From an uncultured bacterium (GTDB taxonomy: Bacteria > Elusimicrobiota > Elusimicrobia > Elusimicrobiales > Elusimicrobiaceae), in NCBI GenBank assembly GCA_949291365.1, contig CASEVJ010000010.1:1-64000 (forward strand): DNA of 64,000 nt, given 5' to 3'. The translations under genes and the position numbers were made by a program. The notes beneath the pieces were generated by a model. It was not told where the DNA came from and did not search any database. It saw nothing but the letters and a program-made list of their open reading frames with translations. Shown one piece after another: positions 27,872 to 31,052 of the stretch. The number at the start of each line of letters is the position of its first letter. Within the stretch, counting starts at the first letter, position 1.

Positions 27872-28320
27872 AAAGTTCGCTCCGCCAAACGGATTAAGTA
27901 GTTGTTAACTTGCTTTTGCAGTTTCTTGTCTTTAAAAACCGCCTCGGCAGGTGCCTTGACGGAAAAACCGTCTTTGTTTTTAAACACCAGAAACGTCAAC
28001 GCCACTTCCCCGTTAAAATCTACATCCGCTATCAGCAGCCGTTCATTGGTAAACGCCTTACGGTAATCCGCCGATACAAAATGCACTTCGTCCGTCGGGT
28101 AGCGGCAGTCTTTTTTGCATTGCAGCAGGAAATCATATACGTCTTTTTCCAACACTTTTACGTTTTTGTATTTCCCGCCGGAAAGCGGCAACATCAGCAC
28201 GCCGTTTTCCAATTTTACGTCTTTTACGTCAAACACATCCCCGTAGGAAAAAGTAAAAGCGCACGCCGGCACTGCACAAAGCAACCACATCAGCACCGGC
28301 GCACGCTTAAGCCAAAACAT
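27868..28320 (-). CDS. Small secreted protein of unknown function
   Basis: A 150-residue protein with a signal peptide (LMWLLCAVPACAFTF) that I do not recognise. The mature part is rich in Lys, Val and Asp with short strands, and has a paired CKKDC motif that could form a disulfide. A conserved-looking LIADVDFNGEVALTFLVF segment lies in the second half. It starts on the efp stop codon (TAATG) and ends in an ATGA overlap with the DUF192 gene, so it is firmly part of that operon. Confidence 0.7.
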   Translation of the reverse strand: MFWLKRAPVLMWLLCAVPACAFTFSYGDVFDVKDVKLENGVLMLPLSGGKYKNVKVLEKDVYDFLLQCKKDCRYPTDEVHFVSADYRKAFTNERLLIADVDFNGEVALTFLVFKNKDGFSVKAPAEAVFKDKKLQKQVNNYLIRLAERTL

Positions 28321-28892
28321 TATTTGGGCTCCACCACGCGCTCCACATAAGCGCCGGTGCGGGTATCCACCAAGATTTTGTCGCCTTCGTTAATAAAAAG
28401 CGGCACTTTGATTTCCGCCCCCGTTTCCAACGTGGCCATTTTGGTCATATTAGCCACGGTGTCGCCTTTTACGCCAGGCACGGTGGAAGCAATGGTGAGG
28501 GGCACCTTAATAGGCAGCTCCATATTAAGCAGTTGGCCGTTGATATAAATGCCCGTCGTTTCCATATTGTCTTTTAAATATTTTTTCTGATCTTTAAGTT
28601 TCTCTATGGGCACAGACACCTGCTCATAGTTTTCACTGTTCATAAATACGGCCATGTCCCCTTCGTCATACAGATAGGTGAACGGGCGTTTTTCCACTTC
28701 CACTTCTTTAAATTTATCTTCGGGCCGGTAGGCCGTTTCAATCAAAGAACCGGTGTGAATATTGCGCAGTTTTACGCGCACCACGGCGCGGGCCTGGCTT
28801 TTGCGGTGATGCTGAAACTCAATAATTTCAACAATCTGTCCGTTTTCATCTTCAAAAATCAGTCCGTCGTGGAACTGGGTGGTGTTGATCAT
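28320..28892 (-). CDS. efp: Elongation factor P with unusual tip loop
   Basis: A 190-residue EF-P, which helps ribosomes form bonds at polyproline stretches. Three domains are present and the C-terminal signature (KVPLFINEGDKILVDTRTGAYV) is normal. The domain I loop reads EFQHHRKSQARAVVRVKLR where most EF-Ps have a PGKG core. Aligning from the RVKLR anchor puts Gln33 at the position of the lysine that is usually modified. GAGGT precedes the ATG. It lies downstream of two Xaa-Pro peptidases, the common pepQ-efp arrangement. Confidence 0.93.
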   Translation of the reverse strand: MINTTQFHDGLIFEDENGQIVEIIEFQHHRKSQARAVVRVKLRNIHTGSLIETAYRPEDKFKEVEVEKRPFTYLYDEGDMAVFMNSENYEQVSVPIEKLKDQKKYLKDNMETTGIYINGQLLNMELPIKVPLTIASTVPGVKGDTVANMTKMATLETGAEIKVPLFINEGDKILVDTRTGAYVERVVEPK

Positions 28893-28931: not shown

Positions 28932-29987
28932 TTAATTTTTCGTCAAATTTTTGCTGCCGGTTTTGCTCACCAAATAGCTGTCTTCCAAGCGTACGCCGAA
29001 TTTGCCCGGCAAATAAATACCCGGCTCTACGGTAACGACATAATTTTCTTCCAATTCGCCCACCGCCCCGGCACGCTCTATCGGGGCTTCATGCACTTCC
29101 AGCCCAATGGCATGGCCGGTGGTATGAATATAGTAAGGGCCATAACCGGCGTCTTCAATCACGTCACGGGCGGCTTTGTCCACTGCCGCCACGGGCAGCC
29201 CGGCGCGCAGCAAGCCGCTGGCGGCTTCTTTTGCCATAGCCACAATATGCCAAATTTTTTGGTATTCGGCAGGTTCTTTGTCCCCGTGCCACCAGCTGCG
29301 GGTAATATCGGAGCAATACCCTTTGTAGAAACAGCCAAAATCCATCAGTACAGCGTCGTTCTTTTTCAGTTTGCGTTTTTCTGAAGGGGTATGATGGCAG
29401 TCGGCGCAGTTTTCCCCAAAACAAACAATGTTGAAAGGAACGCTGTCAGCGCCGCGCTTAATCATAGCCAGCGCCATCAGCACGCGCACGTCTTCCTCGC
29501 TCATACCGGTTTTAATTTGGGGTTTTACTTCTTCAAATGCTTCCGCGGCAATGCGGCAGGATGTTTTGATTAAATCCATTTCGTCGGCATATTTTACTTT
29601 GCGCATTTCCGCCACGCCGCCTTCCAGGCGGCTTAATCCGGCGCGGGCCAGTTTTTCCCCGCGGGCAAAATCCGCCGTTTGCGGGTCAAACGCCAAGCGG
29701 GTCAATTTATGCTGGGCAGCCGTTTCCAACGCGGCGGCCAGCATATCCCCCGGCACGGCTTTTACGGTAAAAAAACCGGCGGCTGGCGCCATTTTGGGCA
29801 CCATCATTTTTTTGGTCAGGCAATAGGCCTTGCGCGGCGTAAGCAGAAACACCGCCTCTTCCGCGTCCAATTCTATGCCGGAAAAATAACGCAGTTCCAG
29901 CGCACTTAAGCAGATATAGCCGTCTAACTGCGCGTTTTTTAAAAATTTCTGGAAATCTTTGAGCCGTTGGTTGCTTATGTTTTTCAT
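28932..29987 (-). CDS. Xaa-Pro peptidase (M24 family), copy 2
   Basis: A 351-residue metallopeptidase with a creatinase-like N-terminal domain and a pita-bread C-terminal domain. The five metal ligands are visible: two Asp in VLMDFGCFYKGYCSDITRSWW, His in TTGHAIGLEVHE, and Glu in VTVEPGIYLPG and GVRLEDSYLV. It probably cleaves peptides with proline in second position. No ribosome-binding site is seen; the ATG follows the previous stop by three bases, so reinitiation is likely. It is a paralogue of the preceding gene. Confidence 0.9.
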   Translation of the reverse strand: MKNISNQRLKDFQKFLKNAQLDGYICLSALELRYFSGIELDAEEAVFLLTPRKAYCLTKKMMVPKMAPAAGFFTVKAVPGDMLAAALETAAQHKLTRLAFDPQTADFARGEKLARAGLSRLEGGVAEMRKVKYADEMDLIKTSCRIAAEAFEEVKPQIKTGMSEEDVRVLMALAMIKRGADSVPFNIVCFGENCADCHHTPSEKRKLKKNDAVLMDFGCFYKGYCSDITRSWWHGDKEPAEYQKIWHIVAMAKEAASGLLRAGLPVAAVDKAARDVIEDAGYGPYYIHTTGHAIGLEVHEAPIERAGAVGELEENYVVTVEPGIYLPGKFGVRLEDSYLVSKTGSKNLTKN

Positions 29988-29990
29988 AAA

Positions 29991-31052
29991 TTATTTACGG
30001 GTTAAAATGTCGGCCCCCGTATCCGTAATCACGGTGGTATCCTCTAACCGCACGCCGAATTTGCCCGGCAGGTAAATGCCTGGCTCTACGGTAATAACAT
30101 TGCCTTTTTTCAATACCGCTGCCGTAGTTTGGTCGTTGCAGGGCTCTTCGTGTATTTCCATACCTACGCCATGGCCCAGCCGATGCGTAAAATATTCACC
30201 GTAGCCCGCATCGGTAATAATCCCGCGGGCCGTAGCGTCCACTTTTTGCGCCGCCACGCCGGGTTTCTCGGAGGAAATACCGCTTTGGCGGGCTTTGTCT
30301 ACAATATGCCAAATTTTGGTATATTCTTCCGGCTCTTTGTCCCCGTGCCACCAGCTGCGGGTGATATCGGAGCAATAGCCGTTGTAAATACAGCCGAAAT
30401 CCATCAGCACCGCTTCATTGTCTTTGAGTTTGCGGTGGGAAGTTTCATGATGGGGGTTAGCCGTGTTTTCACCAAAGGCAATAATAGTCAGAAAAGAAGT
30501 GGCGGACGCGCCTTTTATGCGCATAAACTTTTCCATTTCCGCCGCTACTTCAAATTCACTTACGCCTGTTTTAAGAAGCGGTTTTATGTATTCGTAGGTT
30601 TCAAACGCGATACGGCAGCTCTCGCGCAGGACGGATATTTCATGCTCGTCTTTGGTCTGGCGCAGGACAGATATGTGGCTTTCCGTCTCCACAAACCCAG
30701 ATGCCTTAAACAAACTGCCCGCCATATAGCTTTCTTTTTCAGCGTCAAAGCCGACCCGCTTAAGCCCCAGACGGGCCGCTTCAGCCACTGCGGCAGCAGT
30801 CATTTGTTTGTCCTGGCCGAACACCTGCATAAAAGGATATTTCGCTTTCACGGGCTCCACATACAGCTGGCGTGTAAAACACACCAAACCGCCTTCATGC
30901 AATAAAAGCACGGTTTCTGCCGGGTAAAAATAAAAATCCAACATATAAAACTGGTCAATATTGTTTGTTATTACCAGTCCGTCCAACCCGTCCTGCTGCA
31001 TCCGTTTTTTTAATGCGGATATTTTTTCTAAAATTCTTTGTTGCAAAGCCAT
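29991..31052 (-). CDS. Xaa-Pro peptidase (M24 family), copy 1
   Basis: A 353-residue paralogue of the following gene, with all five metal ligands: VLMDFGCIYNGYCSDITRSWW, RLGHGVGMEIHEEP, TVEPGIYLPGKFGVRLEDT. AAGGAG precedes the ATG. It heads the operon M24-M24-efp-secreted protein-DUF192. Two tandem copies suggest a duplication, perhaps with different peptide lengths as substrates. Confidence 0.92.
   Translation of the reverse strand: MALQQRILEKISALKKRMQQDGLDGLVITNNIDQFYMLDFYFYPAETVLLLHEGGLVCFTRQLYVEPVKAKYPFMQVFGQDKQMTAAAVAEAARLGLKRVGFDAEKESYMAGSLFKASGFVETESHISVLRQTKDEHEISVLRESCRIAFETYEYIKPLLKTGVSEFEVAAEMEKFMRIKGASATSFLTIIAFGENTANPHHETSHRKLKDNEAVLMDFGCIYNGYCSDITRSWWHGDKEPEEYTKIWHIVDKARQSGISSEKPGVAAQKVDATARGIITDAGYGEYFTHRLGHGVGMEIHEEPCNDQTTAAVLKKGNVITVEPGIYLPGKFGVRLEDTTVITDTGADILTRK

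Follow-up and report, generated by a model that had tools for sequence, protein, structure and literature searches.

Elongation factor P with a glutamine-tipped loop in a branch of Elusimicrobiota

The efp gene and the position of Gln33

The DNA analysed here, a window of 64,000 nucleotides (positions 1 to 64,000 of contig CASEVJ010000010.1, GenBank assembly GCA_949291365.1), carries the efp gene for elongation factor P (EF-P) at positions 28320–28892 of the minus strand. The product of 190 residues starts at ATG and has the three domains of EF-P (KOW-like, OB and C-terminal), each of them above its Pfam cut-off, and with 213.4 bits it exceeds the threshold of the EF-P equivalog model TIGR00038 (185.8). 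The protein is far below the cut-offs of EfpL/YeiP (117.7 vs 216 and 108.7 vs 264.05), and its loop has seven residues with a glutamine tip, whereas the EfpL loop is two residues longer with an arginine tip (PMC11611912). The only PF01132 match in the 1.39-Mb genome is this gene; the named close relatives of the protein belong to Elusimicrobiaceae, e.g. Candidatus Avelusimicrobium, and the top Foldseek matches of its predicted structure are EF-P structures, e.g. 6s8z (TM score 0.90). The gene encodes the ordinary and sole EF-P of an Elusimicrobiaceae bacterium, and outside the loop the protein is normal, as the first-pass annotation said.

The loop between strands β3 and β4 (residues 30–36, RKSQARA; positions 28785–28805, minus strand) was delimited by the AlphaFold2 strands, the coordinates and the alignment. 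Its fourth residue, Gln33 (codon CAG, positions 28794–28796, minus strand), is assigned by alignment, AlphaFold2 and the loop survey to the position that is normally modified. Four alignments to solved EF-Ps run without a gap across the loop, placing RKSQA opposite KPGKG and Gln33 opposite the loop lysine, and the alignment to a lysine-tipped relative from the same class is likewise gapless, with K-P-G-K-G-G-A in the relatives facing R30-K-S-Q-A-R-A36. The AlphaFold2 model of the window EF-P has a strand at residues 20–29, the loop at 30–36 and a strand at 37–44. Its mean predicted local distance difference test score (pLDDT) is 87.5, with moderate confidence at the loop, where residues 31–40 score about 77 as a block. 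In the model of the Lys-type control, the strand extends to residue 28, the loop covers 29–35 and the next strand starts at 36, with Lys32 the fourth of seven. Seven residues is also the canonical length of the EF-P loop (PMC6544042, PMC11611912). Because the alignments are ungapped and both models have the same seven-residue loop, Gln33 sits at the tip, in the fourth place. The first-pass annotation had put Gln33 at the position of Lys34 in E. coli, with PGKG absent, and both alignment and model agree; in neither is the tip occupied by Lys31 or Arg30.

The window EF-P shares with Lys-type EF-Ps (the EpmA-modified type of E. coli and the type of B. subtilis) the fold, the three domains, the seven-residue loop with its flanking strands and the efp locus. 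It differs from them in having Gln33 for lysine and Lys31 in place of the proline two residues before the tip. Arg-type EF-Ps, rhamnosylated by EarP, likewise lack this proline; here glutamine replaces their arginine. Among 1,166 EF-Ps the tips were reported as Lys (81.11%), Arg (14.75%), Asn (2.23%), Met (0.77%), Gln (0.6%) and Ala (0.51%), the Gln tips being described as never accompanied by proline two residues before (Volkwein et al. 2019, PMC6544042), and glutamine is listed among the tips again in PMC11611912. The window EF-P has the same combination of a Gln tip without that proline.

Distribution and history of the glutamine-type loop

EF-P matches were found in 191/198 genomes drawn from the phylum and in 82/89 genomes of a search within the class, together 217 different genomes. 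The loop was read in 125 of these; the unread ones are mostly further members of the window organism's own genus and of family f10, which we take to be Endomicrobia-like. The tip is glutamine in 86, lysine in 37 and alanine in two of the EF-Ps read. In families f1 (40), f2 (15), f5 (4), f7 (21), f24 (2) and f26 (1) every loop read is Gln-type, as are three of the four read in f8. The Lys-type was found in the remaining f8 member (genome G088), in f3, f4, f6 and f27, and in every family read outside the class. Among 80 loci of a named collection, the 38 from Elusimicrobiota are Gln-type and the 42 others Lys-type. The Gln tip is a clade-wide switch from KPGKG, larger in scope than the first-pass annotation had stated.

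Residues R30, S32 and Q33 are invariant in 86/86 Gln-type loci, and the consensus of the loop is R[KM]SQ[AS][RAK]A. Since 86 genomes have the same three residues, neither chance nor sequencing error accounts for them. The corresponding codons vary among the 86 genes: all six arginine codons are used, serine is encoded by AGY (32) and TCN (54), and glutamine by CAG (60) and CAA (26). Because the three residues are unchanged while synonymous codons vary, the loop is maintained by selection on the protein. The invariant sites belong to the 25 of 190 positions that are at least 98% conserved in 62 dereplicated Gln-type proteins. Residue 31, lysine in the window, is methionine in 14/86 loci, and residue 35 is arginine in 65, alanine in 18 and lysine in three. 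As both vary, an essential modification is unlikely to fall on Lys31 or Arg35, which weakens the earlier suggestion that these charged residues substitute for the tip.

In the EF-P tree (107 EF-Ps, loop columns removed) the three tip types need two changes. The Gln-types lie on one side of one branch and are nested among Lys-types, with lysine at the outgroup. Residues outside the loop follow the tip: Trp25 is present in 36/36 Lys-type and 0/62 Gln-type proteins, and at positions 55 and 56 the two types differ almost throughout, Phe55 and Lys56 being replaced in the Gln-type. Just upstream of efp in the window is a gene for an M24 metallopeptidase similar to Xaa-Pro peptidases (PF00557; positions 28932–29987, minus strand), followed in tandem by a second one (PF00557; positions 29991–31052, minus strand). 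An M24 gene is found upstream of efp in 35/37 Lys-type loci, 50/55 Gln-type loci of f1 and f2 and 2/2 Ala-type loci. It is present in 2/31 of the remaining Gln-type loci, and the neighbourhood differs in those families. Because this neighbour is common to Lys-type and Gln-type (f1, f2) loci, the arrangement fits a change of the loop in place, for the order to which the window belongs.

Outside Elusimicrobiota, a degenerate pattern of the loop was found in 3/395 genomes of the phylum to which a Desulfonauticus genome belongs and in 2/398 of the phylum that includes a Ruminococcus genome, and in 0/5 cases lay within an EF-P gene; the pattern misses some Gln-type loops, e.g. those ending in RST. 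Two further kinds of loop were observed in the phylum. Ala-type EF-Ps with the loop KMAAEEA occur in f9 (L146:2584-3138, G122) and f25 (L257, G199) and form a separate pair in the EF-P tree with support 99. This loop has an alanine tip and two glutamates and lacks the proline two residues before, with which published Ala tips are described as always occurring (PMC6544042). In addition, G004, G061, G156, G173, G189, G201 and G208 carry a second EF-P-like gene that is divergent, its loop reading e.g. HTGGGKTGAM or HKATAKMGSM (L185–L189, L276, L279).

Modification enzymes and polyproline translation

The first-pass annotation had proposed a search for homologues of known EF-P modification genes. 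EpmA scored over the cut-off in 0/198 genomes, the control genomes being over it in 2/14. The EpmA model matched in every genome, at best through proteins of the length of lysyl-tRNA synthetase; in the window genome the best match, 205.8 bits and below the cut-off, is a frame of 516 residues and likewise of synthetase size. EarP was also found in 0/198 genomes, yet its control was silent (0/14 control genomes detected), so that its absence is unproven. YmfI acts on lysine. We also considered methylation of glutamine by an enzyme similar to the glutamine methyltransferase PrmC. PrmC is over the cut-off in 81/89 genomes, at one place per genome in both types, and the lack of a second copy in Gln-type genomes neither shows nor excludes such methylation.

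The deoxyhypusine synthase family (PF01916) is over the cut-off in 86/198 genomes. Strong homologues are present in 62/74 Gln-type and 0/26 Lys-type genomes read from the phylum draw; of the other Gln-type genomes, 6/74 have a divergent homologue only and 6/74 none, with unchanged loops, and Met31 occurs in four genomes that have the strong homologue. In the window genome the homologue (L224:7017-8099, G000 C8) scores below the deoxyhypusine synthase cut-offs (TIGR00321, 230.8 vs 304.25) and is over the cut-off solely for NF002699, caldomycin synthase. The gene lies away from efp and adjoins what is presumably glyA, near presumed dnaX and recR. Caldomycin synthase of Thermus thermophilus is reported to couple two agmatines en route to homospermidine (PMC10981699). 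We regard the homologue as a putative polyamine enzyme that the same clade has inherited, and its co-occurrence with the Gln-type loop would be explained by gain in one clade. A second divergent subtype of the family was also observed (L234:6420-7337, L235:5900-6814 and L236:6266-7177), with about 140 bits to PF01916; it is below every NCBIfam cut-off, as scanned with N-terminally cut sequences.

Valyl-tRNA synthetase retains the motif PPPN[VI]TG in 42/42 readable rows of the alignment, 30 of them Gln-type. The other 5/47 rows gave no motif: three are misframed (G078, G042 and G179, the first two showing PPP elsewhere), one is another synthetase (G057) and one is cut at the N-terminus (G215). 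An apparent loss of the motif in Elusimicrobiaceae was an artefact of the regular expression, NITG standing in place of NVTG. The open reading frames of at least 120 residues in the window contain 30 PP and three PPP in 18,826 residues. Because the synthetase keeps its proline triplet and PPP occurs in window reading frames, polyproline is still translated in the Gln-type lineage. A working EF-P would be the simplest supposition, and ATP-binding cassette F (ABCF) factors could contribute.

Probable unmodified function or a possible new modification

We favour, with a probability of about 0.6, a functional EF-P whose loop has been rebuilt so that an unmodified glutamine tip would suffice. The change from KPGKGGA to R[KM]SQ[AS][RAK]A would give a loop that probably functions with unmodified side chains. 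The CCA end would be within reach of Gln33, and the loop would be shaped or made stiffer by the invariant Arg30 and Ser32 together with the changes beside it (the loss of Trp25 and the replacement of Phe55 and Lys56). The analysis shows what the protein is, where its loop lies, how conserved the loop is, that the Gln-type nests among Lys-types, that no EpmA exceeds the cut-off and that valyl-tRNA synthetase retains a proline triplet; we infer the lack of modification, the contacts with the ribosome and the retained activity. A presumed likeness is found in an actinobacterial group of EF-Ps, which reportedly function unmodified with a stiff loop, that is, through loop composition; unlike the window EF-P, this group is said to keep lysine at the tip. 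EfpL is an example of an EF-P that works with an unmodified tip (PMC11611912), as is proposed here. Translation is reported to be able to adapt to missing EF-P modification (Bailly and de Crecy-Lagard, PMC2821294), and more than half of bacteria are stated to be without known EF-P modifying enzymes (PMC6544042).

Several points weigh against this reading. The search for modifiers was made with known families, so that an enzyme of an unknown family would escape it, and a role as modification target would explain the invariant Q33 equally well. The E. coli variants K34A, K34M, K34N and K34Q are all reported inactive (PMC6544042); glutamine alone is therefore no substitute for the modified lysine, and here the entire loop differs. 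The grouping of Gln-type EF-Ps in one clade inside the Lys-type has an SH-aLRT (Shimodaira–Hasegawa-like approximate likelihood ratio test) support of 67, which is not strong. In the tree of valyl-tRNA synthetases the tip types need six changes, the Lys-type G088 nesting in Gln-type f8/f7 and the Lys-type G204 grouping with Gln-type f24. This tree uses 44/47 rows, some poorly placed; G078, G042 and G179 were omitted, and G057 forms a very long branch. G088 (L151, f8), G204 and G201 (L260/L261, f27) have a full Lys-type EF-P with KPGKGGA, and Trp25 is present in G088 and G204. A constraint uniting all f8 EF-Ps was not rejected (p 0.54), and a reversal, a replaced gene or a second origin could account for G088 and G204.

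The other explanations differ in how well they fit these observations. That the loop is misaligned and Arg30, Lys31 or Arg35 truly occupies the tip, making the protein Arg-type or Lys-type, is highly improbable; the moderate pLDDT leaves room for it, but the loop equals those of Lys-type relatives in length without a gap, the control model has the same seven residues, and Lys31 and Arg35 vary. It is also improbable, to a lesser degree, that the polyproline role has been lost and the loop drifts or serves another function. A loop unlike any characterised one and the inactivity of K34Q would suit such a loss; the loop is nevertheless among the most conserved parts of an EF-P that is single-copy in the window genome, and valyl-tRNA synthetase retains PPP. 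We consider it similarly improbable that the PF01916 homologue modifies EF-P, e.g. at Lys31 or another loop residue. Its distribution in Gln-type and Lys-type genomes is striking, but the score as an agmatine-coupling enzyme, the unchanged loops in the genomes with a divergent homologue or none, the Met31 cases and the position of the gene beside glyA argue against it, and we set deoxyhypusine synthase aside as the EF-P modifier.

The main rival to our reading, a modification of Q33, R30 or S32 by a lineage-specific enzyme not yet known, is possible, though doubtful. These are the sole absolutely invariant residues within 30–36 in 86 genomes, and characterised active EF-Ps are mostly modification-dependent, E. 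coli K34Q being dead (PMC6544042). However, no candidate gene adjoins efp. The neighbours recognised there encode the M24 peptidases, a protein of family DUF192 and what is likely an outer-membrane protein; a small open reading frame nearby has no match in Pfam, and PrmC has no extra paralogue over the cut-off. If a residue is modified, R30, S32 or Q33 would be more likely than Lys31 or Arg35. We tentatively keep the idea that the R-x-S-Q loop might be the substrate of an undescribed modification, which would have arisen as a branch of Elusimicrobia abandoned KPGKG. The first-pass annotation was right about glutamine at the modified position, and both its alternatives, an unmodified loop or an unknown enzyme, stay in play.

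In the literature searched for EF-P together with Elusimicrobi-/Elusimicrobium and for tip residues, we found no described modification of the Gln-type subgroup. The class itself is in print, so the known subfamily with a described modification that the earlier annotation had considered was found in its first part only. Volkwein et al. (PMC6544042) count Gln tips, and in the text available to us we found neither lineage nor motif for them; here they belong to a defined clade with the motif R[KM]SQ and Lys-type relatives. Gln tips are already known. We found no description of the clade itself, nor of its motif, its enzyme profile or its nested position among Lys-types.

EF-P is a textbook example of a factor that depends on modification of its tip residue. 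Elusimicrobiota offer a before-and-after pair, with Lys- and Gln-types in one phylum, often at one locus, and few linked changes between them. A modification of the R-x-S-Q loop would, if true, be one more independently evolved way of activating EF-P. The lineage makes EF-P function without a charged, modified tip directly testable, or points to a new modification.
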